DNA of 52,819 nucleotides from Spirochaetes bacterium GWB1_27_13 (GTDB lineage: Bacteria; Spirochaetota; GWE2-31-10; MWDO01), in NCBI GenBank assembly GCA_001829125.1, contig MIAN01000261.1, positions 1 to 52,819 of the forward strand, written 5' to 3'. Every line of letters starts with the position of its first letter. The stretch's first letter is position 1. Below are positions 16,587 to 50,194 of the stretch, one piece after another. Under the pieces are notes generated by a model. That model did not search any database. It saw only the letters and a list, made by a program, of their open reading frames with translations, and had not been told where the DNA came from. Both the position numbers and the translations under genes were made by a program.

Positions 16587-16596
16587 AGTCTGCCTT

Positions 16597-17778
16597 TCAC
16601 ATATGTTTTCTAATTTCACTAAATTCTATCTTATAATAAACACCATCTTGATTTTTAATTTCCATTTTTCCACGAAGTTGATAAGTAAGTAATTTTATTA
16701 ATGTTAAACCAAGTGTTTTAGGTTTTTCTATGTCAATATTTATTGGCAAACCAATCCCATTATCAGAAATGCTTAATTCTATTTTGTTTTCTATTTGAGA
16801 CAAGGATAGGTTTATTTCTCCTTTTTTTCCATTAGGAAAAGCATATTTAAAACTATTAGATATAATTTCATTTATTATCAAACCACAAGGTATAGCAATA
16901 TCTATATTTAAAAAAACATTAGAAATATTAAGATTAAATTTAATATTAGTATCAACATTAAAAGAATAAATCAAATTATATATAAGGTCTCTTATATAAC
17001 CATCAAAATCTATTTTTGATAAATTTTCTGACTGATATAGCTTTTCATGTACCAAAGAAATAGACCTTATTCTATTTTGAGATTCTTTAAAAGCTTCGAC
17101 TATCTCTTGATTTTCTATTTTTTCAGCTTGAAGACTTAAAAGACTTGATACAACCTGTAAGTTATTTTTTACTCTATGATATATTTCTTTTAATAAAACT
17201 TCTTTTTCTTCCATAGAATCTTTTATTTTTTCTTCATTTATTTTTCTTTCCGTTATATCAATAACCGCAGTTAGAATTTTTGGTTGGTTATTTTGATTTT
17301 CTTCTAATAGAATACTAACAAGATTTCCATAAAAAAAAATTCCATCTTTTGTTTTTAGTTTTAATTCACAAGTTTCTTTTTGCTTTGTCTCCAAAGTTTT
17401 ATTTAAATGAACAAAAAAATCGCTAAAAGACTCTGTTGCAACAAAACTAGAAAAAAGTTGTTTTACAAGTATATCTTCCTCAAAATTAAATTGTTTTATG
17501 GAAGTAAAATTTGCTTCAAGGATTAAACCATTCTCATTTAATATAAAATAACTAACAGGTGAATAATTAAAAAGTTTCAAATATTTATTTGTCATCTCTT
17601 GAATTTGATCATAAGAATTATTTAACTCCTCATTTTGAAGTTCGAGTTCAATTTGATATGTTTGTAATTCGGCAATTAATTGTTTTATATCCTTTGAACC
17701 CAAATTATTATTTCTGTCATAATTTGATAGTACTTCTAAAGCTCTTTTTCTCAATGTTTCCTTTTTTTCATCATACAT
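16597..17778 (-). CDS. PAS domain sensor histidine kinase (HisKA_2/HWE-like)
   Basis: KEIYHRVKNNLQVVSSLLSLQ H-box typical of HisKA_2; NEIISNSFKYAFP N-box; DNGIGLP G-box. Confidence 0.85.
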   Translation of the reverse strand: MYDEKKETLRKRALEVLSNYDRNNNLGSKDIKQLIAELQTYQIELELQNEELNNSYDQIQEMTNKYLKLFNYSPVSYFILNENGLILEANFTSIKQFNFEEDILVKQLFSSFVATESFSDFFVHLNKTLETKQKETCELKLKTKDGIFFYGNLVSILLEENQNNQPKILTAVIDITERKINEEKIKDSMEEKEVLLKEIYHRVKNNLQVVSSLLSLQAEKIENQEIVEAFKESQNRIRSISLVHEKLYQSENLSKIDFDGYIRDLIYNLIYSFNVDTNIKFNLNISNVFLNIDIAIPCGLIINEIISNSFKYAFPNGKKGEINLSLSQIENKIELSISDNGIGLPINIDIEKPKTLGLTLIKLLTYQLRGKMEIKNQDGVYYKIEFSEIRKHM

Positions 17779-20700: not shown

Positions 20701-21086
20701 AAAATATCTATTGGTAAATTTAAAATCATCGTTCCGTGTTCATGCTCTGAGTCTGTTAAAATTAACTTTTTATGATAAATTGTTATATTTTTTTTAGGGG
20801 GTATTAAATAGACGTAATTTGGTAAAACAATCATTCCATCTTCAGCTTGTAAAACTTTCATCTTAGTTTTTTTTGAAAGAATCTCAGCCATAAGACTTTT
20901 ATAATCGGGAGATAAATGTTGAACCACAACAAAAGAAAGCCCAGAATCAAAAGGCATATTTTCAAAAAAAATACCTAAAGCTTCAAGCCCTCCAGCAGAT
21001 GCCCCTATGCCTACTATATAATGATTTATATCCTTAATAGAATAGTCAATTTTATCTGAATTATCAAAATTTCCACTATCTAACAA
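17790..21086 (-). CDS. CheB-CheR fusion methylesterase/methyltransferase with PAS domains
   Basis: GIGASAGGLEAL, VVQHLSPD, LSGTGSDGTRG (CheB); WVAGCSTGEEAYSIAI, FATDID, DLISCRNLLIYL (CheR); coiled coil EELETSKEELQSTNEELLVANEELQSINEEL; PAS segments. Confidence 0.9.
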   Translation of the reverse strand: MLDSGNFDNSDKIDYSIKDINHYIVGIGASAGGLEALGIFFENMPFDSGLSFVVVQHLSPDYKSLMAEILSKKTKMKVLQAEDGMIVLPNYVYLIPPKKNITIYHKKLILTDSEHEHGTMILNLPIDIFFKSLAKDQGKKSIGIILSGTGSDGTRGIRAIKEANGMVMVQDEKSAKFDGMPRSAISTGIVDYVLSAEKMPEELLKYIQNPYVLSKNHISLLQDNDCLTKIFALIRNKTGIDFSYYKETTVLRRIERRLSINQIGNLNDYVRYLLEYSNEIITLSKELLIGVTSFFRDTDAFEEISLKVIPSIFENKISNSPIRVWVAGCSTGEEAYSIAILFKEYMEKTNKKFDIKIFATDIDTNAVSIASTGIYPESIIADVGEDRLQKYFTKKGDNYKIMPCIREMIIFARHNIIKDPPFSKIDLISCRNLLIYLQNVLQKKVISLFHFALNKGSFLFLGTSETIGDWDNFFVSFVSKFKIYQHQDGIKTMEIDSINIYNPENTDAYSKERINFSKLKNSATDIFINSIYEQLIEQYVPLSIIVNENNELLHAYGDINQYLKIPSGKISLDILKMVKDDLSIALSTAIHRVLKDKKELIYKDVIFKEKDVVKSLTLNIKPCIDTKTDQTYILIIFQENKILDTNDNIERFDVENKASQRIMDLEHDLQYIKEDLQTVIEELETSKEELQSTNEELLVANEELQSINEELNGEIITISSQYQSKIKELTDLNDDINNLSKITDNVTIFLDKKLYIRKYIQVDGDEINLLKSDIGKPLSRISCNFKYIDLVEETEKVFESLILKEIEIQTIKGSWYLLRILPYTTKDNKVKGCVLTFVNITKLKESVENIKKFSYAVEQSLNSIIITDVNGNIQYVNPIFLEKTGYCLDEIIGKNVRILKFALMSPSVYEDILKTIKEGKIWRGKLCNRKKNGELYWISASISGIRDEIGEITNYVNVSQDIIDIKTKENKLLIEESILSKILKFSSKALLYIDYKGKILYTNKKLEKIFEIDKNKILNTNFNNPDWIFLDTNNKEIDLNDLPFSKIKTKKDEIKNMIYNIKLKSEKIISVSIDGIPIFDDLNNLAGAIFFLDNKYLS

Positions 21087-29199: not shown

Positions 29200-30613
29200 T
29201 CTATTTCTATTAATATTTTTGTTTTCAGTAACATTTTCTTTTGGTATAGGGATAACTCCGTATATTTTTATCATCGAGTTTGAAGAAAATACAACAGATA
29301 TTGTACCAAATATGATCTATTATAAAGATTGTTCGCTTGATAAAATAGAACCAGAAGTTAGATATGACAAAAACTATATCAAACTAAAAAAATTAAATTA
29401 TCCAAAAGAAATTGATATTGAACAAACAAATTTAATAGATGACCTCGAGGATAATAAAAATCATGATCTCATTCACACAAAACAAATAGAAAATACTCTA
29501 AATAAACCTATTCCCAAAAAAATTAATTTTAAGATAGAAAGCAATTTTTTTTATAACAATTTTTATTATTCAACAAGTAATTTTGAGATTTTTAATAAAA
29601 ACGTCTATGAAAGGTTATTTTTACAAACAGACAACAATAAAATCAACTTAAACAATATTTTTAAGTTAAATACAACATATAATTTTAATTTTGAGAATAA
29701 AATAGATTTCAATTATGGAAAAATTTATAAAGAAATATATTCTAATTTTATTTTTACCGAAAACCTGAAAAATATTAATTTTAGTGAAGATATTGCTTTT
29801 GGCTATGATATAAAAAATAATTTTATTAAGAGTGGAATATTTTTTTTGGTAGAAATAAAAAAACAATTTGTCCCACAATTTTTATTTTATTATAATGGAC
29901 TTGATTTTTTTATTGGAGGAGGCTTTAGTTATAAGAATAATTTTTTAGAAACAAAGATTAACAATGATATTCAGTTAGATTTTGTTAAAAATTATAAATT
30001 TAATTTTGATTTTTATATTAATTTTAATTATTCTTCTATTTTTAGCCTATCTTTAATAAAAACAGATGATAGATTTAAAGGAGAAAATTTTTATAAATAC
30101 AAAAAAATCATTGACGACAAAGAAGAAAAAAATATATTATCTTTAAGTGGAATTGATTTTAAATTTAATAAAAATATAGTTTTTTTCAATATTTTGACGA
30201 TTTTCTACTTTGATTATTATTTTTTATCTATTGATTTGATTAGAAATATAGTTTTTAACAAACCTAATATTTTTTGTAAGTTTGAATTAGCATTTGACTT
30301 AAAATATTTTTTACTTAATTTTTCTTCAGATATTAACTTATCTGACCTAAAAACTATCGATACCAGATTTTTGTTAGAATTTAGAGACATTAAAACAAAT
30401 TTTATTACATTTAATGCTGGATTAGCTTCTTATTTAAAAAACAATTTTGACACAATAGAAATTACAAGTAATATAAAGATAGACTTTAATATAACTAAAA
30501 ATGGATTACTATATACAAGATTTAACGGTGGATTAGCCTTAAATAATCTTAAATCAAATATTTCAGCACAATTTATCTATTTTATAGAAGGTGGGTTTAA
30601 AGCATTTTTTTAA
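29177..30613 (+). CDS. Hypothetical exported beta-strand-rich protein
   Basis: Start chosen at MQYNGKNSLFLLIFLFSVTFSFG (signal peptide); overlaps the upstream CDS by 23 nt. Confidence 0.5.
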   Translation: MQYNGKNSLFLLIFLFSVTFSFGIGITPYIFIIEFEENTTDIVPNMIYYKDCSLDKIEPEVRYDKNYIKLKKLNYPKEIDIEQTNLIDDLEDNKNHDLIHTKQIENTLNKPIPKKINFKIESNFFYNNFYYSTSNFEIFNKNVYERLFLQTDNNKINLNNIFKLNTTYNFNFENKIDFNYGKIYKEIYSNFIFTENLKNINFSEDIAFGYDIKNNFIKSGIFFLVEIKKQFVPQFLFYYNGLDFFIGGGFSYKNNFLETKINNDIQLDFVKNYKFNFDFYINFNYSSIFSLSLIKTDDRFKGENFYKYKKIIDDKEEKNILSLSGIDFKFNKNIVFFNILTIFYFDYYFLSIDLIRNIVFNKPNIFCKFELAFDLKYFLLNFSSDINLSDLKTIDTRFLLEFRDIKTNFITFNAGLASYLKNNFDTIEITSNIKIDFNITKNGLLYTRFNGGLALNNLKSNISAQFIYFIEGGFKAFF

Positions 30614-32340
30614 ACGCCAATCATTTTTTGGATTGTCCTAATTAAAAAATAAATGGATTGCATTGTTTTAAATCCAAAATGTTTATAATAAATTAGATGA
30701 GAGTCATTTATATCTTTTTTTTGTAAAATAATTTCAGTCATAATACTAAATTTTTTCAAAAAATAAAATTTTTGTTCCATTTCACAAATTAAGTTTTTCC
30801 AGTTATTTAAAGATTCATCATCATTTTGATTAAAATCAGTCTTTTCAAATAAAATCTTTAATCTTTGAGAAAATTCAAATAAATTATTTATCATTTCATT
30901 AAAAAAAGTATTTATTTGACCTTTTTCTATCAATTTTAAATGATTTTGACTCAATAAGTCTTTTGAATTAATCCTATTGCTATCATCTATTATATTCTCT
31001 AACTTTTCTTCCTTTAAATTTTCTATTTTTAAAGAATGATAAATTGAGTTATAAATATGTATATCTGGATTATTTTTTGCAAAATGACTAAAATAAGATG
31101 CGTAATTTTCTAACACAAAATCCGTAAGAACATTTTTATCACTGATTTTACTTTTACCTGTTTTTATGCTTCTACAACTTATAGCCTTTGCCATCATAGA
31201 CTCCGGTGGTGAAAAATAATTTGATAAAAACATAGTCTTTTCATAATAAGGAGAATCTTTACAATGAGTAATAAAATCTGGAAATGACAAATCAAGCCCT
31301 GCAAGGTATATTTTTTTAAAACCAAAGCTAATTGCAAGATTGAGAGCATAGTCAGCCACAGTTCCACCAGTATCGATTCCATTTTTTGGAATACCAAAAC
31401 TATCAAAAAAATATTCGATTATACTTTTGTTAAAAATATTATTAGTAAAAGTAAAATATATATTATCCACTAACCTACCCAATTTTGGATAACAAATAAT
31501 ATCAAAAATATAACTAATTTCACTCTTTTTATCTAAAACAAAATCATCAAGACTATAAAATTGTCCATCAAGTGACACAACAAAGTCTGGTTTAATATTA
31601 TTTTTTAACAGTGGTTTTAAAGCAGTATCAACAGCAAAAAGTGTAATTTTATCTCTATTATTTCTTATGAAGGGAATATCATTTGTTAAATTTGGACCTG
31701 CACATGCTATTACACACAAATTATTCCCCATATCATTCTTTTTTATATCAATAATAGGAGATTTAGAAAATTGCGAAGAATTATAAATAAAATTCTTAGT
31801 CCATAAACCTATAAAAGTTGACTCTGTTAGTATATTTTGCGTGATTATACTAAATGACTTTTTTATTAAATTAAAAAAATTAGCCTCTTCTTTTGGTAGA
31901 ATATTCTTATAGCCAATATTAGAGTAATAATAAATCCTACCCTCAGAAAAAAAATCATTTTTTTCAATAAAATTGTAAATTTCTTCATCATTTATAATTG
32001 AAACCAAAAGTAGTTTTTTATCTTTAAAAATACTTTGGTCATAATATTTTTCTTTATAAAGCAAAAAAATCTCTTTAATGGGTTCATAAATTATAAAAAT
32101 AGAGTCTGGATTATTACTAATTATGTTATTAATTCCATAACCAAGCCCAACTCCAAAAATTATTATTAGATTCTTACCTTTATAGATAAAATTTTTAGCT
32201 TCAGCTTCCGGATCAAATTTTGAGTGTATATATTTATCATTTATGATTAGAATATCTTTATTATTTCTTGATTTTTCTATTTTAAAAGAAAAAAAAGAGC
32301 TATCATTATCGATAGCTCTATTATTGTTAATATTAGACAT
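30610..32340 (-). CDS. DUF115 / motility-associated factor (Maf) glycosyltransferase-like protein
   Basis: VIACAGPNLTNDIPFI, LFAVDTALKPLLKNNIKPDFVVSLDGQ, GGTVADYALNLAISFGFKKIYLAGLDLSF. Confidence 0.8.
   Translation of the reverse strand: MSNINNNRAIDNDSSFFSFKIEKSRNNKDILIINDKYIHSKFDPEAEAKNFIYKGKNLIIIFGVGLGYGINNIISNNPDSIFIIYEPIKEIFLLYKEKYYDQSIFKDKKLLLVSIINDEEIYNFIEKNDFFSEGRIYYYSNIGYKNILPKEEANFFNLIKKSFSIITQNILTESTFIGLWTKNFIYNSSQFSKSPIIDIKKNDMGNNLCVIACAGPNLTNDIPFIRNNRDKITLFAVDTALKPLLKNNIKPDFVVSLDGQFYSLDDFVLDKKSEISYIFDIICYPKLGRLVDNIYFTFTNNIFNKSIIEYFFDSFGIPKNGIDTGGTVADYALNLAISFGFKKIYLAGLDLSFPDFITHCKDSPYYEKTMFLSNYFSPPESMMAKAISCRSIKTGKSKISDKNVLTDFVLENYASYFSHFAKNNPDIHIYNSIYHSLKIENLKEEKLENIIDDSNRINSKDLLSQNHLKLIEKGQINTFFNEMINNLFEFSQRLKILFEKTDFNQNDDESLNNWKNLICEMEQKFYFLKKFSIMTEIILQKKDINDSHLIYYKHFGFKTMQSIYFLIRTIQKMIGV
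32289..32319 (-). terminator. Intrinsic-terminator-like hairpin plus T tract inside the 5' end of the DUF115 CDS
   Basis: Minus strand: AGAGCTATC-GATAAT-GATAGCTCT followed by T7-C-TTTT. Confidence 0.65.
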
Positions 32341-34378: not shown

Positions 34379-37300
34379 ATGTTATTATTAGCTATTCTTA
34401 TATCAGGAGCTATTTCTTTTAGTATTGCATTAGTTTTTAGGCAACTCGATAAAAATAATAGAAGTTTTGAAAAAATTGCTAAACTTTCAAAAAATATTAA
34501 AGATGAATTAGCTTCTTTTGCGGATGAAAAAATCCAATCTTTAAGAGATTTTGATAATTGCATTGATGTTTCAATTCAAAAAGGCAGTAATTTAATCAAT
34601 GTTTTAAAATCTTCTATTTCTGAGCTAGAATCTAAGTTAAATGGTGTGAATAAAGAAACTGATAAAGTTAATGAATTTTATACTCAACTTGAGATTATTG
34701 GTAAAAATATAGCTGGTATTGACCAAGAATTTAAAAATATAGCCGAAAATTCGTCTTATGTTAAGAATGTTGAAGAAAAAATAAACAAATTTAAAAAAGA
34801 TATTGCTTTAATAGAAAAAAACATTACAAGAATTGAAGATGATTTAAGAAAAGAAAATTCTCAAGCCCTCAAAAATATTACAGAAGAAATTGTTTCTGAA
34901 ACACAAAATGAAATCAAAAATATTAGAGATAGCTTTTTAGTTTCATTTAAAGAAGTAGAAAATAAAAAAGACAGTATTATTGAAGATATTGAAAGAAAAA
35001 ATAATGAAATGAATAGTAAAATATCAGAAACAGAGAATATATTAGATAATTTCGCACAAAGACAAGAAAAATTTGTTATTGAAAATAATGAAAAATTATA
35101 CAAAGAAATAAAATCTGTTGAGGATAAATTAAATAATATGAAAGACAACTTTATTGGAGTTGTTGTTGAAGAATTTAATAATCTAAACTCAATTAATAAC
35201 TCAAAAGTTGAAGAAGTTAAAAATGACATCGCAAAAATTGAAATAGAATTAACTGATAAAGTTAATGAAAAAGTAGCAAAATTTAACACAATCATATCTG
35301 AAATGGAACAAACTGGCGAAAATGTTGATAAACTTGTCAAAGAAGAGTTTAAAGAAGAAAAAACTAAACAATTAGCCGAAATTAGAACAATTTATAGTAA
35401 TATTCTAAAAGAAATTGATACTTATAATGAAAAATTAAAAAATGAAGCTAAAAACAATATTATTAAGGTATTAAGAGAAAATGAAGATAAATTTAAAATT
35501 TTAAATGAAAACTTTAAGAAAATGGAAAAAGATGGACAAATTAAATTAACATCTTTTGAAACAACTTTAAATGAATATTCAAACAATTTTGAAAGATTAA
35601 AATTAGATATTTCAAAAGAAATAGAACATAAAGCAAAACAATTTGATGAATATATCAATACTTCAAGTGAAAAAGTAATTACAAACATAAGTATTACGTT
35701 AAATAAAGTTTCTTCTGATGCAAATGGTAAAACAAGCGAGATCACATCTAAATTTGAAAATCTTTTTGCAAGTATAGAGTCAAAACTTTTAACAACTGAA
35801 AAAGAATTAGTTGAAAACTCAAGAAAAATCGAGACTTCGTTATCTAAAAAAGCAAATGATTTAGAAAATACATTATTTAATAGACAAAATGACTTGGAAC
35901 AAAATATTCTAAAGGATATTGAGGCACGGTATCACAATTATAAATCTTCTATCGAAAATAATTTTAATGAAAACTATTCTAATTTGAATAATTTTGTAAG
36001 TGAATCAAAAAATGAACTTTCTTTATTAAAAGAAAAATTGATGGAAACTATCAATAAATCAAACGATGAGATTAGTACAGTTAGAGAAAAAACAATTATT
36101 TCTTTTAATCAATCAAAAGAGAATATTGAGTTAGAACTTGGTGATTTTTACAATAAAATAAAAAAAGAAGTTGAAAATGTAGAAGGAAAAGTCAATAGTA
36201 TTGAAGATTCTTTTATACAAAGACTAAAATCTTTAGATACTCTTGTTGAAGAAAAAATTGAAAACAATGTTTCGTGGTGTAATTCAAAAATTAATGACTT
36301 GTACAATAGAGGCAATGAGTTAGATACTCTCTTTAATACTAAAATTGGTCAAACCGAAGAACTTTATAATAAAAGTTTAATTAAATTAAGGTCTGATAAT
36401 GAACAGAAACTTAATTTAGTCGAAAATCAATATAAAAACTTGGCTAATTCTATTAATGAGATTAAAAACAATATTGATAACGATATTACATCATTAGTGT
36501 CTAATGCTTCTACAAAATTAAAAGAAGAATATAGACAACTCGAGGAAGAGTCATTAAATACAGTGAATGGCTATAAAAATGATTTGGGGAAAATAAAACA
36601 ATCAATTAAGTTTATTGAAGAAAAATATAACGAAAGATTGGACAATAAATTTGACGAAATTGATAAAAATTTAATTGGTAAAATGCAAGATGTTAATGAA
36701 ATTGTTGATAAAATTCAAGAAATTAATGAAAAATATAATATTAAGTTTAATGAACTTGGAGAAAGATTCAAAAACTACGAATCTGACCTTAATTTAAGAT
36801 CAAATGAAATTGAAAAAAGATTAAACGAAAAAGGCGAAAAGATTCTATCTGGTAGACTCGATAAAGTAAACGAAATATCTTATAAATTTAATGAAGTTGT
36901 AGAAAACATCAATGGTTTAAAATCTAAAATAGATACTGAAATCTGCCAAAAAGTTGAGGATGGTAAACTTGAAATTAATAAAGTCTTTGAAGACGGGAAA
37001 AATTTTGTTTTTACAAATTATAATAATTTGGAAGAAGAAACAGTAAACCGAATTAATACTTATAAAAATGAATTATCTATCCTTAAAAATAACCTAAATG
37101 ACATCGAAATCAACTTTAATAAACTATTTGAAGAAAAATTAAATCAAACTGATAATGTTTTAAATGAAAAAACAAATCAATTTAATGTAACTTATTCTTA
37201 CTTTGTTGAAGAATTGAATAAAAAGATTAATCTTTTAGAAGGAGACTTTAAGAATAAAATAGTTGATTTGGAAAATAACTATAAAAATTGGAATGAAAAA

Positions 37301-40300
37301 GTTACAAACGAAAAGTTGATTGAACTTGAAAGTTTCACTGATAAATTTAATAGCATTCAATCTCAAATACAGGATGTTAAACAAAAATTAGAAGACGAAA
37401 TAGGAAGTCAAATTGAAAATGGCAAAAAAGATATTGCTAATATTTTTGAGAATGGAAAAGAAAACATAACAAAGCAATATAAAAATCTTGAGCAAGACAC
37501 AGCAAAAAACCTTGAAATGTTTAATTCTGATTTAAATAAGATTAAACAAAACATGAAACTTATTGATGAGAAATTTAGCGGAAGATTTATAAAAAAATTA
37601 GAGGATGCTGATGTAAAACTTGTTGAAAAACTTCAAGAAGTCACAGAAAAATCAAAAACTTATTTTACACAACTCGGTTTAAAATGGAATAATAATGAAA
37701 CAGATTTTAACAGAAAACTTTCTGAGATTGAGAAACAATATGTTGATAAACACGATAAGATATTACTTGATAAGACAAATGACTTGGCTGAGTTAAAAAC
37801 AAGGTTTGATGGTTTAAATGTTCAAATAAATAACTTTAACAATAAAATTAATGTAGAACTTGAAGAGAAATTTGAAGCAGGTAAAAATGAATTAAATAAT
37901 ATCCTCAACAATGGTAAAGATAAACTTGTCACTGAGTACAAAAAACTTGAAGAGCAAACTGTTGCAAGCATTGCTTCTTACAAAAACGATTTGTTAAAAA
38001 TCAAACAAAATTTACAACAAGTTGATGATAAGTTTATGGAAAAATTTGACAAAAAGTTAAATGAAGTTGACAATAGAGTAAACGATAAAGTTGTAGAATT
38101 TCAAGATGTTTATAAGGATAATATATTAGAATTCACCAATAAAGTTAAAATTCTTGAAAAAGAGTTTGAAAATAAACTTAATTCAATAGAAAAAGTTTAT
38201 AATGAAAAAGGTGATGCTATGGTTGCCAAAAATCATGAGAAAATTGACGAAGTTAGAAATATTTTTGCTGACCTTACTCTACAACTTGATAATATAAAAA
38301 TCAGACTTGACAGTGATATAAACGAAAAATTAGAACAAAGCAAACTTGAAATTGCAGATATTTTTGCAAAAGAAAGCGAGAATTTAATCAATAAATTTAA
38401 AGATATTGAGGATAATGCTCAATTTAGGCTAAATGAATATTGGGATGAGTTAATTAAGATTAAAGAAAGCTTTAAAAATATTTACATCTCATTTCAAGAA
38501 AAAATTGATGATAAGTTTAATAGTGTTGATTCTACAATGTTACAAAAACTTGGTGAAATGCAAGAAAAAATGGGTAAAAATATTTTTGATTTATCAAATA
38601 AAATTAAACTCACCGAGTCTGACTTGGTAAATAGCATTTCTTTATTAAAAGATGATTTTGCTAAAGAAGAAGAAAAAACTCATATTGCAAATCTTGACAA
38701 ATTGAATCTTTTCACAGAAAAATTTGAAGATTTAAAGACTGCTTTAGAGTATCTAAAAAATACTTTTGACTCAGATGTGACTTCTAAAGTTGAAAATGGC
38801 AAAAAAGAAATATATGAACAGATCGAAAACGAAAAAATTAAAATATTTGATATTTACAAGGAAGTTGAAAATCGTTCTATCGAAAAAATTGATAATTATA
38901 AAGAAGAACTTGGTAAATTGGAAAATAAAATTTCAAACATTGATGAACTTTACAATAAACATTTACAAGAAAAAATTGCAGAAATTGATAATGAAATTAC
39001 AGAAAAGAAAAACCAAATTGATGAAGAATACAATTTTGCTGTTGGAAACATCTCTGATAAACTCAGAAATATTGAGTCAGAATTTTCACAAAAACTTTAT
39101 ATAATCGAAAATGATTATAAAGAAAAACAAAAATCTATTTTTGATGAAAATACAAAATTTGTTAATTCTATAAACAAAGATTTTAATAATCTCAAAAATG
39201 AAATTGAAAACCTCGATGATAGAGTTAATTTGGAAATTAAAGGAAATCTAAACTCCTCATTGGAAGTTTTACAAAACAAATTACTCAATATCGAGTCTGA
39301 TTTTACTAACAAGTTAAATACTTTAGAAAAAGACTATTTTGAGAAACAACAATCTATGTTAAACGAAAAATCTCTATTTGTTGATGATTTTAAGAGTAAT
39401 TTCAACCAATTAAGAGAAGAAATGGATATTCTTTCTACAAAAACAAGCGATGCTGCTCAATCTAACTTAGAATTTGCTATTACTAAAATTGGAAATAAAT
39501 TAGGTGAAGTAGAAAATATTTTTAATGAAAAGTTATCAGAAATAGAAAAAGAATATAAAGATAAGCAAGATATTATATTAAACGAAAAAATTAACTTATT
39601 TACTAATTTTAAAAATGATTTTAGCAGATTAAAAGAAGAAATAGATAATTTAAACACAAATTATAATAGTAAACTCAATGAAAACCTTGATATTGCTATA
39701 AAACATATTAATGAAAAAGTAGATGGAGTTCAATCTGATTTTGGCGATAGATTATCTTCAATTGAAAAAGAATATAGCGATAAGCAAGAATTGTTGTTAG
39801 CAGAAAAACAACAAATACTTGAAAATGTAAATAACGATTTTAATGATCTAAAAGTAAAAATTGATAATATTGATAGTATGGCAACTGATGAAATTACAGA
39901 AAAACTTAAAACCGGAATGGAAAACATTAATAAATTGTTTAACGAAGGTAAAGATCGATTATTTAATGAATTTAAGAAAGTCGAAGATAATTACATCAAT
40001 AAAATCAATGAGTACAATACTGATTTACAAAAAGTTAGAGAAGAAATTAACTTTATGGATGAAAAGTTTAATAGTGAGTTTAGCAATAAATTAAATGATG
40101 CTGACAATAAACTTTTGGAAAAACTTAAAGATTTGGATGATAATTACAGTTTTAATGTTTCTAATATTTCTGATAAAATTAGAGATTTGGAAAGTACTTT
40201 TTCAGCAAACATTAACGAAATAGAGAAATACTATAAAGAAAGAACTAATAATTTGATTAATGAGACAGAAAATCATATAAATCAAATTGGTTCTGATTTT

Positions 40301-43300
40301 TCTAACTTAAATCAAAAGATAGAGAGCGTTAGTTATCAACTTGAAAATAATATTAACGAAAAAATAGAAGCTGGTAAATCTGATTTCACAACTATACTTA
40401 ACGATGCAAAAGAAAATTTTAGCTTAGAGTACAAAGAAATTGAAAAACAAGGCAAAGAAGAACTCAATAATTTAGTTAATAAATTAAACTCAGTAAAAGA
40501 AAATATCAATTATTTAAACGATGATTTTTCAGAGAAATTTAATGAAAAGATAAATAATTATGACCAAAAGTTTCAAGATATTACAAATAGCGTTTGGAAT
40601 AAATATAAATCAACTATTGATGACTTAAATAATAATTTATCTAATGTAGAATATGATTTCAAGACAAAAATAGATCAAATTGAACAAACATTCAACCAAA
40701 AAAATGATGATGCTTTGTCTGCTAATTTTGAAAAATTGAATGGTTTTGAGGTTAAATTTAATCAAATTGTGGATTCTATCAATACTATAAAATCAAATCT
40801 TGATAATGATATAAAAAACAAGATTGAACAAAACAACAAAGCGATTGAAAAAGCACTTTTTGAAAGCAATAATTTGGTAAGTGTCCATAATGAAAAACTT
40901 GATGTAGAAATTGGCGAAAAAATTGCTAATTTTTGGAATGAACTATCTAAATTGAATACTGTTATAAATGATGTTAATAATAACTTTACAGATAGTTACA
41001 ACCAAAAATTAAGTGAAATAAGTATTCAAATTGAAAACTATATTGAAGAAATTAATTCAAAATATAAAAATGAAGTTAATTCTTTAATAAATAATTTTTC
41101 TAATGTAGAAAATGGTTTTAATGGTAAAATTTCTGAAATGGAAAATACTTTATTTGAAAAAAATGATTTAATCATCAAAACAAATGAAGATAAATTTAAT
41201 AATTTTAGAGAAAAATTTGAAACTCTTGCTAAAGATATTGTTTTTATAAAAGATAAACTTGATGGAGAAATCAAACAAAAACTTGATAATCAAAGAAATC
41301 AGGTTGAAAATATTATCAATGAAGCAAATAATAGCCTTATTTCATTAAATACTAGTTTTGAGAGTGATTTAAACTCAAAAATAGATGATTATAAAAATCA
41401 ATTTTCTACTATTAAGAATAATTTAACTGAAATTGAAAATAAATTCAACAGTTCTTACACAAATAAATTAAAAGAAGTTGATAATCAAATTGAATCTTTT
41501 GTTTCAGAACTTGCAACTAATTGTAAAAATAGAATTGACGGTCTTTTTATAAACATAAAAGATATTGAATCTAATTTTTCAAATAAAGTTAATTCAATAG
41601 AAGATTCTTACAACCAAAAAGGTAGCGTAATTTTAAAAGATTATTATGATAAATTTAATAGTTTTACAGAAGGTTTTGATTTACTCGCAAAAGATATAAA
41701 TCAATTAAAATCTAAGATTGATAGTGATGTATCGATAAAAATTGAGGAAGGTAAAAAGCAAATCGACAACCTTTTTACAAGTGGTGCAAAAAATATTACA
41801 GAACAATATAGAAATCTTGAAAGCGAGACAATAAGAAAAATCAATGATTACAGAAATGAAATATTTAAAATTAAACAAAACATTCAACAACTTGATGAAA
41901 GATTTAACATTGCATTCTCAGAAAAAGTTGAAGAATTTGACAAAGTGTTTAGTGAAAATTTAAATGGATTGAAACAAAATTATAAGTCTAATATTGACGA
42001 AATCCAAAATGACCTAAAAAATCTTGAGTTTAAGTTAGCAAGAGAAATTCTTGACATCGAAAAAGAATATTCTGAAAAGGCAGAAGCTATGCTAGTAAGA
42101 AATGCTGATAAACTCGATGGATTTGTAAATAGATTTACAGAACTCAATAGTCAAGTTATGAGTTTAAAAAATAGTATAGATGGCGATGTTAAAGAAAAAA
42201 TTGAGAATGGCAAACAAGAAATTACTTCTATCTTACAATCAGAAGTTGAAAAAACTAAAGATCAGTACAAAAAACTTGAAGAAGAAAGTCAACTTAAAAT
42301 CGTTGAGTTTAGAAAAGAAATTGTTAAGGTTCAACAAAATATCAAAATGGTTGATGATAGGTTTACCGCAAAATTCCTTGAGCATACAAGCATAATTGAT
42401 AGAAAGATTGTTATTATTGAAGATGATATTAAAAAGATAGAAAAACAAGCTAGTATTTTTGATAAAGCTAATTCTCTAAAAGATAAACTTGAAGCCGATA
42501 TTAAGGTAATTAAAGATTCTATTGGCAAAATTAAGAATGATAGAGAAGAAATAGTTGAAATTGAAAAGAAAATGATAAATATCGAAGGTATTTTTAGTGT
42601 TTCTCAAGAAAAGAGTAGCAGTATTATAAACGATAGAAAAAAAATTGAAAATATCAGTAATGTTTTGGCTGAATTAAAACAAGTTTCTGAAAGTGTTGAG
42701 GAAAAAATTGAGAGTGTTAAGAATGCAAAAGCTATGATTACAAATGTCGAAAACCAAATTGAGACTCTAAACAAAAAATTTGGTGAACTTGGCAATTATT
42801 TTAATGTTATAAGAGAAAAAGAAGAAGAGGTAAAATCTTCTCTAACTGAAGTTGGTAAGCTAAAAGATGAATCAACTAACCTTAATACTAAAATAGAGTC
42901 TTTAAATAAGAAATTTGATGATCTTGACTTCAAAAAATCAACTTTTGAAAAGAGTTTAAAGAATTTTGAGAAAGATGCTGGTATTATAGCGAAATCTGAG
43001 TCAAAAATATCTGATGTTATGGATAAATTCTCACAAATGAACTCTTTAATTGAAGACCTTGAAATTAGAACAGATTCTATCAATAAAATTAGAGAATGGC
43101 TCGTAAAGGCTGAAACTCAAATTGAAAATATGCACGGTGAGTCAGATAAAAGGATTAAACTTTTGGAATCTCTAATTTCTAAAACTGGTGACAGTGGAAT
43201 TATAAAAGAAAAAATGAAAAATGATAATTCTAAAAAAGAAGTTGTATTACAGTTGCAATCTCAGGGTTGGACAATTGATGATATAGCAAAAACACTAAAT

Positions 43301-43360
43301 TTATCTGTTGGAGAAGTAGAATTTATACTTGACCTTGAGTTAAGTAGAAAAAGAAAATAA
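34379..43360 (+). CDS. Giant SpiroCoCo-type coiled-coil protein (2993 aa)
   Basis: N-terminal TM MLLLAILISGAISFSIALVFRQLDK; about 2900 aa of coiled coil; C-terminal VVLQLQSQGWTIDDIAKTLNLSVGEVEFILDLEL. Confidence 0.85.
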   Translation: MLLLAILISGAISFSIALVFRQLDKNNRSFEKIAKLSKNIKDELASFADEKIQSLRDFDNCIDVSIQKGSNLINVLKSSISELESKLNGVNKETDKVNEFYTQLEIIGKNIAGIDQEFKNIAENSSYVKNVEEKINKFKKDIALIEKNITRIEDDLRKENSQALKNITEEIVSETQNEIKNIRDSFLVSFKEVENKKDSIIEDIERKNNEMNSKISETENILDNFAQRQEKFVIENNEKLYKEIKSVEDKLNNMKDNFIGVVVEEFNNLNSINNSKVEEVKNDIAKIEIELTDKVNEKVAKFNTIISEMEQTGENVDKLVKEEFKEEKTKQLAEIRTIYSNILKEIDTYNEKLKNEAKNNIIKVLRENEDKFKILNENFKKMEKDGQIKLTSFETTLNEYSNNFERLKLDISKEIEHKAKQFDEYINTSSEKVITNISITLNKVSSDANGKTSEITSKFENLFASIESKLLTTEKELVENSRKIETSLSKKANDLENTLFNRQNDLEQNILKDIEARYHNYKSSIENNFNENYSNLNNFVSESKNELSLLKEKLMETINKSNDEISTVREKTIISFNQSKENIELELGDFYNKIKKEVENVEGKVNSIEDSFIQRLKSLDTLVEEKIENNVSWCNSKINDLYNRGNELDTLFNTKIGQTEELYNKSLIKLRSDNEQKLNLVENQYKNLANSINEIKNNIDNDITSLVSNASTKLKEEYRQLEEESLNTVNGYKNDLGKIKQSIKFIEEKYNERLDNKFDEIDKNLIGKMQDVNEIVDKIQEINEKYNIKFNELGERFKNYESDLNLRSNEIEKRLNEKGEKILSGRLDKVNEISYKFNEVVENINGLKSKIDTEICQKVEDGKLEINKVFEDGKNFVFTNYNNLEEETVNRINTYKNELSILKNNLNDIEINFNKLFEEKLNQTDNVLNEKTNQFNVTYSYFVEELNKKINLLEGDFKNKIVDLENNYKNWNEKVTNEKLIELESFTDKFNSIQSQIQDVKQKLEDEIGSQIENGKKDIANIFENGKENITKQYKNLEQDTAKNLEMFNSDLNKIKQNMKLIDEKFSGRFIKKLEDADVKLVEKLQEVTEKSKTYFTQLGLKWNNNETDFNRKLSEIEKQYVDKHDKILLDKTNDLAELKTRFDGLNVQINNFNNKINVELEEKFEAGKNELNNILNNGKDKLVTEYKKLEEQTVASIASYKNDLLKIKQNLQQVDDKFMEKFDKKLNEVDNRVNDKVVEFQDVYKDNILEFTNKVKILEKEFENKLNSIEKVYNEKGDAMVAKNHEKIDEVRNIFADLTLQLDNIKIRLDSDINEKLEQSKLEIADIFAKESENLINKFKDIEDNAQFRLNEYWDELIKIKESFKNIYISFQEKIDDKFNSVDSTMLQKLGEMQEKMGKNIFDLSNKIKLTESDLVNSISLLKDDFAKEEEKTHIANLDKLNLFTEKFEDLKTALEYLKNTFDSDVTSKVENGKKEIYEQIENEKIKIFDIYKEVENRSIEKIDNYKEELGKLENKISNIDELYNKHLQEKIAEIDNEITEKKNQIDEEYNFAVGNISDKLRNIESEFSQKLYIIENDYKEKQKSIFDENTKFVNSINKDFNNLKNEIENLDDRVNLEIKGNLNSSLEVLQNKLLNIESDFTNKLNTLEKDYFEKQQSMLNEKSLFVDDFKSNFNQLREEMDILSTKTSDAAQSNLEFAITKIGNKLGEVENIFNEKLSEIEKEYKDKQDIILNEKINLFTNFKNDFSRLKEEIDNLNTNYNSKLNENLDIAIKHINEKVDGVQSDFGDRLSSIEKEYSDKQELLLAEKQQILENVNNDFNDLKVKIDNIDSMATDEITEKLKTGMENINKLFNEGKDRLFNEFKKVEDNYINKINEYNTDLQKVREEINFMDEKFNSEFSNKLNDADNKLLEKLKDLDDNYSFNVSNISDKIRDLESTFSANINEIEKYYKERTNNLINETENHINQIGSDFSNLNQKIESVSYQLENNINEKIEAGKSDFTTILNDAKENFSLEYKEIEKQGKEELNNLVNKLNSVKENINYLNDDFSEKFNEKINNYDQKFQDITNSVWNKYKSTIDDLNNNLSNVEYDFKTKIDQIEQTFNQKNDDALSANFEKLNGFEVKFNQIVDSINTIKSNLDNDIKNKIEQNNKAIEKALFESNNLVSVHNEKLDVEIGEKIANFWNELSKLNTVINDVNNNFTDSYNQKLSEISIQIENYIEEINSKYKNEVNSLINNFSNVENGFNGKISEMENTLFEKNDLIIKTNEDKFNNFREKFETLAKDIVFIKDKLDGEIKQKLDNQRNQVENIINEANNSLISLNTSFESDLNSKIDDYKNQFSTIKNNLTEIENKFNSSYTNKLKEVDNQIESFVSELATNCKNRIDGLFINIKDIESNFSNKVNSIEDSYNQKGSVILKDYYDKFNSFTEGFDLLAKDINQLKSKIDSDVSIKIEEGKKQIDNLFTSGAKNITEQYRNLESETIRKINDYRNEIFKIKQNIQQLDERFNIAFSEKVEEFDKVFSENLNGLKQNYKSNIDEIQNDLKNLEFKLAREILDIEKEYSEKAEAMLVRNADKLDGFVNRFTELNSQVMSLKNSIDGDVKEKIENGKQEITSILQSEVEKTKDQYKKLEEESQLKIVEFRKEIVKVQQNIKMVDDRFTAKFLEHTSIIDRKIVIIEDDIKKIEKQASIFDKANSLKDKLEADIKVIKDSIGKIKNDREEIVEIEKKMINIEGIFSVSQEKSSSIINDRKKIENISNVLAELKQVSESVEEKIESVKNAKAMITNVENQIETLNKKFGELGNYFNVIREKEEEVKSSLTEVGKLKDESTNLNTKIESLNKKFDDLDFKKSTFEKSLKNFEKDAGIIAKSESKISDVMDKFSQMNSLIEDLEIRTDSINKIREWLVKAETQIENMHGESDKRIKLLESLISKTGDSGIIKEKMKNDNSKKEVVLQLQSQGWTIDDIAKTLNLSVGEVEFILDLELSRKRK

Positions 43361-43460: not shown

Positions 43461-43478
43461 ACCTTGGGGGAGGGAGTA

Positions 43479-46400
43479 ATGTCAGTTACTTTATTTTTTG
43501 TATCAATTTTTGCATCGTTTGCTTTAATTATAGTTTTTAGGCAACTTGATAAAAAAAACAGGCAGTTTGATAAAATAGCAAAGCTTTCTAAAACGATAAA
43601 AGATGAAATAAACTCTGTTACTAAAGAAAGATTTGAACAAATAAAAGATTATGATAATAATCTCGATGTTTCTCTACAAAAGGCTCATATTCTATTAGAA
43701 GAATTAAATAAAGCGATAAAAAACTCTGAACAAAAAGCACAACTATTGGAAAAAGACAAACTCAATAATTTGTTACAAAAAATTGATACAATAGAAAATG
43801 AGTTTAATAATATCAATACTCAATTAGGCGATTTACAAGAAACAAAGAATTTTAGTAAAAACGCAAATAAATTTGTAAAAGAAACAATGCACGAAATGAA
43901 AATTGTCAAAAATGAAATACATTCGCTAAAAAAGGAACTTGATAACAAAAAAGGTGAAGTAACTGACTCAATCAAAAAATCAGAAGAAAAATTTAAAAAC
44001 GAAATTGAAAAAACAAAAAATAATTTTACTGGTATGATTGATGAACAAAAAAAATATTTTGATCAGACAGCTCTTAATTTTAAAAAAGACATAAATTTTG
44101 TTGAAGAAAGTATTAAACATCTGAAAGATGGTTTTTTTAAAGAAATTGAAGATGAGTTTAGTACAATAACTGATTCTTATAAAATAAAAGCAAGTGAAAT
44201 TAAAAGCGAACTTGGAAACTTGGAAGCTGAACTAAGAAAAAAACTTGAAGAAAAAATCAATGATTATTCCACATATATTACTCGAATTGAGACAAGAGGT
44301 GATAATCTTGGTAAAAAAATTGAAGCCGAACTTGAAAATGTTAAACAAAATTATATCCTTGATATAAAATCAAATTATAACACAGGCCTTAGTGAACTTG
44401 ATAAATTTAACGAAAAATTAAAGTCTGATGCAAAAAATAACATAATTAAGACTTATAACGAATACGATGATAAATATAAAGCTTTATTAAGCAATTTAAA
44501 GAATATTGAAGAAGATGCAAGTACCAAATTGGTAAATTATGAAACATTCTTAAATGACTCATCAAAACATTTTGATAAAATAAAAAATGATACTTTTAAC
44601 GAAATTGAAGAAAAAACCAATGAATTTAACCTTCATATAAATAATGCAAATGATATGGGAATCAGGCTTGAACTTGAGATTTTTAACAATATTAAATCAA
44701 ATTTTGCGGATTTTAAAAATGAAGTAGAAAAAGAATTTCATCTATTAAAAAATAACATTGATGAAAAGAATGGAATTTTTGAAGCAGATGTAGAATTAAG
44801 ATATAATAACTCAAAAAATAAAATTAGAGAGATAGAGGGAGTTATTAATAATCTAAATGACGATTTTGAACTCAAAACCAAAAAAATTAGAGAAGAAATG
44901 ATAACTATTGAAGAGCAAAATAAAATAATTGTTACTAAAATTTCGGCTAATATGGAAGATTTTGGAAAAAAAGTTGATACAGATATTATTAATTTAAAGA
45001 ATACTTTTAACACAAATACTACTGAGATGAAAAATGATCTTGAAAATGAGATCGAAACATTCAACAATAAAAAAGAAATTTTGAGAAATGATCTCACTGG
45101 AGAAATGGAAAAATATAAAAATACTATAAATGGAAATATCTTAAAATTAAAACAATATTTTGATAAAGAAACAGAAAAATTATTTGTAAATATAGATAAA
45201 TCAATGGAAAATATGACAAATGATGCTAATGGAAAAACTAAAGAGATTTCAAAGCGATTTGAGGAGAAATATAAAGAAATTGAACTTAAATTGATTAATG
45301 TAGTTCAGGAAATGGGCAAAAAATCCAAAGAATTAGAAACAAATATTTCTCTCAAAACAGGAGAAATTGAAGAACAAATAGATGGTAGAATGAAAGATAT
45401 TCAAGATAATTTGTATGAAAAACAAAATAATTTTGAAAGTGAACTTAGAGACCTTGGAATTAATTATGAGTTAAAATTAAAATCATTTACAGATGAATTA
45501 AATAGTATTCTAAACAAAACAGATTTAAGTGTTAATCAAAAGATAAAAGATATTGATAATGCAATTAATTTCTTTCAAAATGACATAAATACATTTATTT
45601 CTACTATGAATACAAAAATCAGACAAGGAGAATCTGACTTTGAGAAATTTAGTTTTGATATTATTAATAAAACAAATTCTTTAGAAGAAAACCTCAAGAA
45701 TAAAACAATCGAAATAGAAAGAAATTACTATGATAGAGCAAAAGAACTTTTGAATAATAATGAAGAGAAATTAGATGGTTTTGCTGGAAGATTTGAGAAT
45801 TTGAATATTATTCTAAATAATTTAAAGGATAGTTTTGATACAGATGTTAGAGATAAGATTGATGCTGGTAAAAAGTCTATAATTGGTATTTTTGACAAAG
45901 GAAATCTCGATATTACAAATAATTATAAGTTATTAGAAGAAGAAACAATTAATAAAATCAATGAGTATAAGAATGAACTTGTTAAACTCAAACAAAATAT
46001 GAAATTTCTTGATGAAAAATTTGCAAAAAGATTTGATGAAAAACTTGTGGAATTTGATAATAAATTTGGAAATAGAATTCAAATTTTCAATGAAAAATAC
46101 AAATTCAATCTTACTGAAATGCAGGATAAATTAAAACTTTTACAAAATAATTTTTCTACTAAACTATTGGAAATTGAAGATTCATACTTTAAAAGAGGTG
46201 ATAATCTTGTAAATGATAATATTTCTAAATTAAATGAGTTTATTGATAGATTTAATAACCTTAATAGTGAAATTGAAAGCCTTAAATCTCATATTGATTC
46301 ATCTATTTCAACAAAGATAGATGAGGGTAAAAATAACTTAAATGAACAGTATAAATTACTTGAGGCTGAAACACTTAAAAAAATTAATGATTACAAAAAT

Positions 46401-47873
46401 GAACTACTTAAAATTAGACAAAATATGCAACAACTTGACGACAAATTTATTCTAAAATTTAGCGAAAAAGTTGATGAGGTTGACAAAAAATTTGATATTA
46501 AAATGAATGAATTTAACGAAAAATATGATGAAAACACAAAAATTTTGGAAGAAAAAATAGCCGATCTTAATGAAGATTATAGAAACAAAGGCAATGCAAT
46601 GCTTGCTGATAATGAAGAGAAATTTAATTCTTTTGTTGAGAAATTTAATCAATTAACTGATAATATCAACCAACTCAAAAAACAAGTTGATGATGAAGTT
46701 GTTAAAAAAGTTTATGAAGGAAAAATTAAAATTAATACTGTCTTTGAGGAAGAAACCGCCAAACTTGATACAAGATATAAAAAAGTAGAAGAAGAAGTTA
46801 TTGAAAAATTGAATGATTACAAAAAAGAAGTGTTTAGAATTCAACAAAATATGAAACAAATTGACGATAGGTTTACAGCGAGATTTTTGGAACATTCTAG
46901 CATTTTAGACAAAAAAGTTGCAAATATCGAAGATAATGTTAAAAAATTTGAAAAATCAACAGGTATATTTGAAAAAGTTGATTATTTAAAAAATAAACTC
47001 GGCGAAGAAATTAAAGATTTGAAAGACAAAATGGTGAGTATAAAAGAAGACAGAGAAAATATCATTGAAATCGAAAAACGAATTGTTAATGTTAATTCTT
47101 TGGTTACCCAATCAGAGCAAAAATATAATAGTATAATTTCTAATAGCAAAAAAATTGATAATGTTATGAATATTATTGAAGACTTAAAAGAAATTACTGA
47201 TGGAGTTTCTTCTAAAATTGAAAATATCAATAATGCAAAGGTAATGATTAGCAATATTGAATCAAAAATTGATATTACAAACAAAAAAATTACCGAACTT
47301 GAAAACATTTATAGTTATGCAGCAGAAAAAGATGAATCTATTAAAAAAATTGTTAATGATTTTGAGTCTATGAGGTCAAAATCAATGGAATTAACTAATA
47401 ATTTTGAGATTTTAACCAAAAAATATGATGATGCGGAGTTTAAACGTAATACTTTTGAAAAAATATTCAAAAACTTTGAAAAAGATGCCAATTTGATAAC
47501 TAAATCAGAAGGAAAAGTAATTGAAGTAATTGAAAAATTTAATCAAATGGATGGTTTGGTTACTGATCTAGAATTACGAACAGAGTCAATTAATAAAATA
47601 AGAGAATGGCTTGTAAAAGCAGAAACTCAAATTGAAAACCTAAATCAAGAAACTGATAAACGAATCAAATTACTTGAAGGGCTTATAACAAAAACACCAG
47701 AGAGCAAACTCGTTAAAGATAAAATTAAAGATGAAGGTGGCAAAAAAGATGTTGTTATGCAATTAAGAAATCAAGGTTGGGTAGTTGATGAAATTGCAAA
47801 AACACTAAATCTATCAGTTGGCGAGGTTGAGTTTATTTTAGACTTGGAATTTCATAAAGTTGGTAAAAAATAA
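43479..47873 (+). CDS. Second SpiroCoCo-type coiled-coil protein
   Basis: N-terminus MSVTLFFVSIFASFALIIVFRQLDKKNRQFDKIAKLSK and C-terminus VVMQLRNQGWVVDEIAKTLNLSVGEVEFILDLEF are paralogous to the upstream gene. ATG at 43479 after GGGGGAGGGAG. Confidence 0.85.
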   Translation: MSVTLFFVSIFASFALIIVFRQLDKKNRQFDKIAKLSKTIKDEINSVTKERFEQIKDYDNNLDVSLQKAHILLEELNKAIKNSEQKAQLLEKDKLNNLLQKIDTIENEFNNINTQLGDLQETKNFSKNANKFVKETMHEMKIVKNEIHSLKKELDNKKGEVTDSIKKSEEKFKNEIEKTKNNFTGMIDEQKKYFDQTALNFKKDINFVEESIKHLKDGFFKEIEDEFSTITDSYKIKASEIKSELGNLEAELRKKLEEKINDYSTYITRIETRGDNLGKKIEAELENVKQNYILDIKSNYNTGLSELDKFNEKLKSDAKNNIIKTYNEYDDKYKALLSNLKNIEEDASTKLVNYETFLNDSSKHFDKIKNDTFNEIEEKTNEFNLHINNANDMGIRLELEIFNNIKSNFADFKNEVEKEFHLLKNNIDEKNGIFEADVELRYNNSKNKIREIEGVINNLNDDFELKTKKIREEMITIEEQNKIIVTKISANMEDFGKKVDTDIINLKNTFNTNTTEMKNDLENEIETFNNKKEILRNDLTGEMEKYKNTINGNILKLKQYFDKETEKLFVNIDKSMENMTNDANGKTKEISKRFEEKYKEIELKLINVVQEMGKKSKELETNISLKTGEIEEQIDGRMKDIQDNLYEKQNNFESELRDLGINYELKLKSFTDELNSILNKTDLSVNQKIKDIDNAINFFQNDINTFISTMNTKIRQGESDFEKFSFDIINKTNSLEENLKNKTIEIERNYYDRAKELLNNNEEKLDGFAGRFENLNIILNNLKDSFDTDVRDKIDAGKKSIIGIFDKGNLDITNNYKLLEEETINKINEYKNELVKLKQNMKFLDEKFAKRFDEKLVEFDNKFGNRIQIFNEKYKFNLTEMQDKLKLLQNNFSTKLLEIEDSYFKRGDNLVNDNISKLNEFIDRFNNLNSEIESLKSHIDSSISTKIDEGKNNLNEQYKLLEAETLKKINDYKNELLKIRQNMQQLDDKFILKFSEKVDEVDKKFDIKMNEFNEKYDENTKILEEKIADLNEDYRNKGNAMLADNEEKFNSFVEKFNQLTDNINQLKKQVDDEVVKKVYEGKIKINTVFEEETAKLDTRYKKVEEEVIEKLNDYKKEVFRIQQNMKQIDDRFTARFLEHSSILDKKVANIEDNVKKFEKSTGIFEKVDYLKNKLGEEIKDLKDKMVSIKEDRENIIEIEKRIVNVNSLVTQSEQKYNSIISNSKKIDNVMNIIEDLKEITDGVSSKIENINNAKVMISNIESKIDITNKKITELENIYSYAAEKDESIKKIVNDFESMRSKSMELTNNFEILTKKYDDAEFKRNTFEKIFKNFEKDANLITKSEGKVIEVIEKFNQMDGLVTDLELRTESINKIREWLVKAETQIENLNQETDKRIKLLEGLITKTPESKLVKDKIKDEGGKKDVVMQLRNQGWVVDEIAKTLNLSVGEVEFILDLEFHKVGKK

Positions 47874-47956: not shown

Positions 47957-50194
47957 ATGAAATTAACGATAAAAAATAAAATGGTTTTTTCTATTGTTTC
48001 TATTGTTTCGATAATTTTGCCTATTGCTTTTATCATATTGTTTTTAAATGTAACATCTAATATTCAAAAGCAAGCCCTAAATAATGCCAAAATGATTTCT
48101 AAAGAACATAGTGGAATGATTGATATGGAATTAAATGATGCAATTGAGGCATTAAGAATAATTGCAGATATATCACATACTTTTGAAGAAATGCCAAATT
48201 CTACAAAAAGAGAGTCTTTTAAAGATTTATTAAAAACACTTATATTAAAAAATTCTAATTATTCTGCTGTTTGGACTATTTGGGAGCCAAACAGTTTTGA
48301 TAACAATGATAAGTTTTATATGAATAAAGAAGGATATGACAGTACAGGTAGATTTATACCAGTTTGGTATAGGGAGGGAGATGAAATTAAGCTTACCTAT
48401 GCAATGGGTTATGAAACACCTGGCGAAGGTGATTATTATTTAATACCAAAAGAAAAACAAATGGAAGTTATAATAGAGCCTTATTTTTATTCTTATACAG
48501 GTAAAAAAGAAGATCAAGTTTTAATGACAAGTATTGTTGTTCCAATTATCCATAAAGAAAAAGGTGAAGGATTAGAGGGCGTTGTTGGAGTAGATATAGT
48601 TTTATCAAAATATCAAGAAATGATAGAAAACATTAGACCTTATGAAACAGGATTTTCTGCTATTTTTTCAAATAATGGTGTACTAGTAGCACATTCTATT
48701 GCAAAAGAAAATATAGGTAAAGAGCTAAATATTGAAACTTACGGTAAAGAATTATCTGAACAAAATATAAAGGATATTAAAAAAAATATAAAAGAAGGTA
48801 AAGAACTTTATATAGAAAATTATTCTGAACTTGCAAAATCACAAGTATTTAGATATTATACGCCAATACAAGTTGGTAACTCAGATACTCCATGGTGTTT
48901 TACAGCTATTATTCCTTTAAATAAGATATATGAATCAAGTGGTTTATTGCAATTAAAAATATTATTAACTTCAACTTTTATATTTTTAATATTATTATTG
49001 ATAATCATTATTTCTATTATTGCAAAAATAATAGCAAAACCAATAATAAAAATAACTGATAATTTTAAAATTATTTCACAAGGAGAAGGTGATTTAACTC
49101 AAAAAGTAGAAGTTTATACAAAAGATGAAATTGGTGATCTCGGAAGATATTTTAATGAGTTTTTAGATAAATTAAATACTATTATTGTTAAATTAAAAGA
49201 AGTTGGCTCAAAAAGTCGTGATATTGGTAATAATCTTGCTACAAGTTCAGAAGAAGTTTCAGCTACAATTGAAGAAATAGCTTCTACTATGAATGCTATG
49301 TTAGAAAGAGTAGAATTTTTTAGCCAAGAAGTTGATGTTTCAAAAAATTCTATCCAACAAATAAACAAATTTATTGAAAATGTTGTTAGTTTGATAGAAG
49401 ATCAGTCTTCTGCTGTCAACCAGTCGTCTGCTGCGATTGAACAAATGATTGCATCTATAAATAATATCGAAATAGTTACAGAAGATAAAAAAAATCTTAC
49501 TGATAGTCTTGCAAATCTTGCTAAAAGCGGTGAAAAAGGAATGCTTAATACAGTAGCTTCTATTGAAGAAATATCAAGGTCAACAGAGGTTATATTTGAA
49601 ATGATCAAAGTAATTAATAATGTTGCAGAGCAAACAAATCTTTTGGCGATGAATGCCGCTATCGAGGCTGCACATGCTGGAGAGTTTGGAAAAGGATTTT
49701 CTGTTGTTGCTGGTGAAATTAGAAAACTTGCAGAAACGACTGCTTCTAATGCAAAATCTATTTCTACATCATTAAAAAGTATAACCGATAAAATAAAAAA
49801 TACTTCTAATACAACAAGAGAAACGGGTTCTACTATTAGTAAAATAATAGGTGGTATTACTGAAGTTTCTAATAGTATGAACGAAATGTTATCTGGTATG
49901 AAAGAAATTTCGATAGGTTCTCAACAAATTACTCAGTCTTTAAACAGTCTCATCAAAGTTACTGAAGATGTAAAATCTTCATCAAAAGAAATGAGAACTA
50001 AAACAAATGAAATAGACGAATCCATAAAACACATTTCTAATTTGGCTGCTGAAAATAAAAATGGAATTACTGAAGTTTCTTATGGAATTAACGAAATCTC
50101 TAAATCAACAGTAATGCTTGCAGATTTGAGTAGTAGTAACTCTCAAAATATACAGATATTAGAACAAGAAATATCAAGATTTAAAACAAAATAA
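47957..50194 (+). CDS. Methyl-accepting chemotaxis protein (Cache-like sensor, HAMP, MCP signal)
   Basis: [34 protein letters not shown] sensor; hairpin tip [42 protein letters not shown]. Confidence 0.9.

Follow-up and report, generated by a model that had tools for sequence, protein, structure and literature searches.

SpiroCoCo is known as a motility-related protein of Leptospira, and its family is represented by the NCBIfam models NF047514 (SpiroCoCo_N) and NF047515 (SpiroCoCo_C), together with the LA_3659 family (NF047516). The DUF6115 (PF19610) member of Bacillus subtilis, which we take to be SwrB, is far shorter than the 2993-residue protein described here. SwrB activates flagellar export via FliP, and its occurrence was said to be limited to Bacillus (PMC4526659). 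In the gammaproteobacterial DUF2802 protein FipA, changes of a glycine and a leucine residue abolish FlhF binding, and FipA homologues were reported to be absent from spirochetes (PMC11620751).

The window, a 52,819-nucleotide stretch of Spirochaetes bacterium GWB1_27_13 DNA (contig MIAN01000261.1), encoded a giant rod protein that is, judged by its sequence, a member of the known SpiroCoCo family. It shared with the family the N- and C-terminal domains, the membrane helix, the rod, the C-terminal helix-turn-helix (HTH) and the spirochaete host, and differed from SpiroCoCo proteins generally in a 12-unit array of 153-aa modules between the conserved ends and in a shorter adjacent paralogue (Table 1). 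On balance, the protein is probably a phase-locked, membrane-anchored rod, which would present a SwrB/FipA-like domain to the flagellar assembly or positioning machinery.

Table 1. Mapped features of the giant rod gene, its paralogue and neighbouring genes in the window
Feature	Position	Strand	Basis or remark
TerB_N/TerB_C protein, BrxC/BrxD-type ATPase and DEAD/DEAH helicase, consecutive	1698..7291	+	Apparent defence or BREX-related cassette
Two histidine kinases, following the CheB-CheR-PAS fusion	15105..17778		
CheB-CheR-PAS fusion	17790..21086	-	1098 aa
MptE-like gene, upstream of the SpiroCoCo pair	30610..32340	-	PF01973
Giant rod gene, SpiroCoCo family	34379..43360	+	ORF, 2993 aa, no proline
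Hydrophobic stretch at the N-terminus (residues 1 to about 21), predicted to form a single membrane helix	34379..34441	+	Sequence; topology inferred
SpiroCoCo_N domain, residues 7-220	34397..35038	+	NF047514, 102.7 bits, cut-off 75
Twelve-module array with a 153-aa unit and a 163-aa first interval, residues 656-2720	36344..42538	+	
Three extra 73-aa sub-modules within the 372-aa interval, residues 1580-1798	39116..39772	+	Units 26-40% identical
SpiroCoCo_C domain, residues 2668-2984	42380..43330	+	NF047515, 184.4 bits, cut-off 125
DUF6115 match	43022..43336	+	PF19610, 34.5 and 36.5 bits, cut-off 27
C-terminal three-helix HTH, flexible linker, residues 2949-2992	43223..43354	+	AlphaFold2 model
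G2963, E2979 and F2982 at FipA G110/E126/L129 spacing	43265..43324	+	Sequence compared with PMC11620751
Adjacent paralogue, 142-aa modules	43464..47873	+	1469 aa from TTG (ATG at 43479)
Chemoreceptor (MCP) gene, downstream of the SpiroCoCo pair	47957..50194	+	

Family distribution and C-terminal domain

Both NCBIfam models were exceeded by this protein and by Borrelia-like, Treponema-like and other spirochaete members, and the C-terminal part of the Brachyspira murdochii protein, the portion tested, exceeded the SpiroCoCo_C cut-off. The adjacent paralogue scored 164.4 bits with SpiroCoCo_C (cut-off 125) and 45.3 bits with SpiroCoCo_N, under the cut-off of 75. The N-terminus of the 2993-aa protein was matched by the same N-terminus in relatives, and the motif FRQLDKNNRS, located directly after the hydrophobic segment, recurred in distant family members. 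Relatives in genome contigs were found by an alignment query, while a single-sequence scan returned none. A C-terminal profile matched 231 of 248 Spirochaetota genomes, and SpiroCoCo_C was over its cut-off in none of 14 control genomes. A contig labelled Lokiarchaeota (L048, JAFGOA010000070.1) carried a spirochaete-like SpiroCoCo C-terminus with 64% identity, and is probably mis-binned.

Among 182 near-complete Spirochaetota genomes, the family was present in 175 of the 177 FlhA-positive genomes and in none of the five FlhA-negative ones (Fisher p 1e-8), with genome G225, whose weak matches were fragments in 92-aa frames, scored as absent and genome G044 scored as present. The five flagella-less genomes form one family, so the association amounts effectively to one loss event and the flagellar link is suggestive only. 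The FlhF model TIGR03499 was rejected as a marker because SRP-type GTPases matched it everywhere, which left it without discriminating power.

The AlphaFold2 model of the C-terminus was composed of a 100-residue helix, a linker and the three-helix HTH. The coiled-coil part of the SpiroCoCo_C region had a period of about 3.45, compared with 3.64 in the rod. A search of solved structures with this model gave only generic HTH matches, none below E 0.1, and no specific relative. The likeness to DUF6115/SwrB consisted of a C-terminal domain over the cut-off in a single-pass membrane protein, whereas no gene context in common with B. subtilis swrB was found here. In the 14 control genomes, PF19610 matched only in B. 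subtilis and Thermotoga maritima, both of which have FlhA. With FipA, the protein shared a membrane helix, a coiled coil, a C-terminal domain and the G-x15-E-x2-L/F spacing, in which F2982 replaced L129 (a leucine in some relatives). It differed from FipA in its DUF2802 (PF10975) score, 20.9 bits against a cut-off of 33.5, and in its length of 2993 aa compared with 163 aa.

The SpiroCoCo pair was flanked by the MCP gene and the MptE-like gene, the latter related to the flagellin-glycosylating Maf proteins, and this setting favours a flagellar function. No core flagellar genes were found in the window, and the gene was not beside flhF/flhG; the best FlhF candidate was located on contig C162 and FlhA on C45, with this gene on C261.

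Alternatively, SpiroCoCo could be a general cytoskeletal or cell-shape rod, whose loss in the Sphaerochaeta-like family reflects the lost spirochaete shape rather than flagellar function. In its favour, the sole flagella-less family also lacked SpiroCoCo, cell shape in spirochaetes is linked to the flagella, and the protein combines a huge size with a membrane anchor. However, a part in flagellar assembly is suggested by the DUF6115 domain at the tail and by residues spaced as in FipA, and a general cytoskeletal or cell-shape role is a serious but rather unlikely possibility.

The repeat array and its hydrophobic stripe

The array was located in the variable rod, between the conserved SpiroCoCo_N and SpiroCoCo_C ends. 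The original prediction had described an exact 459-nt repeat with a shorter sub-repeat, and its positions were borne out throughout. All 12 anchor motifs were in frame, at residues 732, 895, 1048, 1201, 1354, 1507, 1879, 2032, 2185, 2338, 2491, and 2644, which gave nine intervals of exactly 153 aa. The four sub-motifs were likewise in frame at residues 1580, 1653, 1726, and 1799 (positions 39116, 39335, 39554, and 39773). The long interval of 372 aa was equal to 153 aa plus exactly three additional 73-aa units (1116 = 459 + 3x219 nt); the earliest of the four sub-motif copies is not an extra one, as every module has this copy 73 residues after the anchor. In an ungapped self-comparison, the offset of 153 scored 1984 over residues 770-2522, compared with an all-offset mean of 60 (SD 92), and other high offsets were 306, 459, 984 (= 5x153+3x73), 1137, and 73. 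The first interval had also been singled out as an exception; its length of 163 aa (489 nt) was indeed different, but it recurred in the orthologues of genomes G001 (residues 793 to 956) and G004 (733 to 896), so it is an inherited, ancestral feature rather than a peculiarity of this protein.

The 12 modules had a mean ungapped identity of 24%, compared with 11% in shifted registers. When the ten internal modules were aligned pairwise for a count of indels, 42 of 45 pairs were gap-free at the optimum, with a mean identity of 27% (range 18–35%), and the remaining three required compensating gaps of 1–3 aa. Furthermore, 306-aa stretches of two modules from this protein and the G004 orthologue were aligned by MAFFT with no internal gaps.

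The rod (residues 741–2640) showed a single hydrophobic period of 3.644, which equals 153/42, and the 73-aa unit gave 73/20 = 3.65. This period fits the mixed hendecad/heptad packing that had been proposed from the module lengths. The stripe power was 242 over 1,900 residues, or 91% of the coherent maximum, whereas control sequences with random cuts of 0–10 aa every 102 aa gave a mean of 45 and a maximum of 83. These results support an ancient array of gap-free modules, selected for register as had been suggested. The rod also showed weak NCBIfam similarity to the coiled coils of ZorA, SMC, and Rad50, which most likely reflects composition and periodicity.

When two modules were modelled by AlphaFold2, run on the monomer only, a continuous helix without hairpins was obtained over residues 2–178 and 186–305, and the break between the two segments fell in a low-confidence stretch. 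Spectrin-like bundles were rejected on the basis of this continuous helix and the absence of proline. At 0.1485 nm per residue, each module would span about 23 nm of helix, and the fully extended protein would reach no more than about 0.44 micrometres. Lysine made up 36% of one flank of the stripe and glutamate 20% of the other, an asymmetry that suits a parallel, in-register oligomer.

Alternatively, the central helix could be a giant version of the amphipathic apolipoprotein helices and lie flat against the inner membrane. The protein matched PF01442 (apolipoprotein A1/A4/E) with 133 bits over a cut-off of 90, apolipoprotein chains were the top solved-structure matches for the module profile, and the straight 3.64 stripe was rich in Phe and Tyr. 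The likeness lies in the 11/22-residue amphipathic periodicity, and the match most likely reflects convergence on this 11-residue periodicity. In contrast to the eukaryotic, lipid-binding apolipoproteins, the protein is acidic, giant and bacterial, with conserved ends unrelated to apolipoprotein. Its net charge was about -1 per 18 residues, and the predicted lipid-binding discriminant averaged 0.05, with 9% of windows above 0.68. An acidic helix with opposite Lys and Glu flanks favours a parallel coiled-coil oligomer over a membrane-lying helix, and the latter is considered unlikely.

Module length in relatives

The named close relatives were uncultured spirochaetes (ADurb.Bin133 and GWE1_32_154). 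The original prediction had also raised a physical ruler or filament spacing. In such a model, each 153-aa unit, with its helix of about 23 nm, would fix a distance, such as the gap from one flagellar motor to the next or a spacing on a cytoplasmic filament. The nine exact intervals agree with this, as do the anchors of G004, which lay at the residues of this protein plus one (733–1355 compared with 732–1354), and the last interval, which was 153 aa in this protein and in the G001, G004, and G008 long copies. However, the intervals of G001 were unequal (163, 153, 124, 190, and others), and modules of the short paralogues were 142 or 164 aa, which is 153 minus or plus 11, so module length did not stay at 153 or 73 in the relatives. 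In addition, 153-aa modules were absent from the Borrelia-, Treponema- and Brachyspira-like members examined. Across the phylum, the open frames with the C-terminal domain were between about 700 and 9,127 aa long, some of them cut by contig ends, and the Brachyspira-like genus alone showed a several-fold spread in total length, with values of 3.9 to 9.1 kaa. Because orthologous modules vary and family frames differ so widely in length, a ruler is unsupported and appears very unlikely.

Phase, rather than length, was shared more widely. Among members without 153-aa modules, the coherence ratio was 0.79 for G013, 0.62 for a Treponema-like member and about 0.5 for two Borrelia-like members; the Brachyspira-like giants showed no such coherence from end to end (0.06–0.07). 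When compared with the G004 orthologue, the stretch of residues 712–1498 was gap-free at 26% identity, and later parts contained many gaps, whose sizes look in phase in an alignment by a program that itself favours in-phase gaps. The coherence in members without the module and the 142- and 164-aa paralogue modules indicate that whole-turn changes are permitted. The constraint on length is thus best understood as one on phase, under which whole-turn changes are allowed and phase, not length, is the common denominator, and the original interpretation is partly supported.

The relatives also differed in their own repeats. The Treponema-like protein L101 (G219) was almost purely hendecad, with a period of 3.666 and repeats of 22/44/66, and the Borrelia-like L100 (G135) had a strong 33-aa repeat at residues 1297–1722. 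The Brachyspira-like genes (L106+L107, L108+L109, L110, and L117) encoded internal repeats of about 600–690 aa; their frame breaks were located near residue 800 in G137 and, in G098, close to an A-rich stretch that lay just past the membrane helix.

A relation between rod length and the number of flagella per cell end was considered and rejected. The SpiroCoCo frame of B. murdochii (G118) was 7,670 aa, and that of G137, taken for B. pilosicoli, was about 5.6 kaa and split by a frameshift. The flagella number 11–13 per end in B. murdochii (PMC3035287) and 4–6 in B. pilosicoli (PMC2897892). The relation fails across genera because the Borrelia-like members were only about 2.2 kaa, with 7–11 flagella in Borrelia (PMC7225975).

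Tandem arrays originate through duplication, but a recent duplication with length not under selection is extremely improbable, as the modules were only 18–35% identical, adjacent modules had a nucleotide identity of 42–55% (about 0.5), which marks them as old copies, and for the first and last modules the best match was the corresponding module of G001 and G004, so that the array ends are older than the divergence of the two families.

Proposed role of the phase-locked rod

The protein would be a single-pass, cytoplasmic, parallel coiled-coil rod, a topology and oligomeric state that we infer from the predicted membrane helix and the flanks of the stripe, and it would end in the DUF6115-type HTH domain. 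The central rod probably grew by ancient tandem duplication of the 153-aa (42-turn) unit, and the 73-aa (20-turn) unit was probably duplicated once, also anciently. Module length would be held because the hydrophobic stripe has to run unbroken along a helix of such length; with a straight stripe of period ~3.64, only whole-turn changes, as 11-residue steps or whole units, would be tolerated. The rod may position the C-terminal domain away from the membrane anchor, where this domain would act on flagellar assembly or placement, possibly as SwrB does in export activation or FipA in FlhF recruitment.

A bolder version makes SpiroCoCo the spirochaete counterpart of FipA/SwrB, in which the C-terminal domain captures FlhF or the export gate, rod length sets the distance between motor and anchor, and lineages alter this distance by in-phase module duplication; in this full form, it is speculative and quite improbable.

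The phase-lock rule, the DUF6115 link and the FipA-like motif may be new. By the phase lock, an odd repeat count becomes a general rule, that such long helices evolve in whole-turn steps with the stripe kept straight. Furthermore, the DUF6115 tail with its FipA-like motif, in a family that tracks flagella across the phylum, gives SpiroCoCo a testable lead and offers a way into how spirochaetes place their sub-polar motors.
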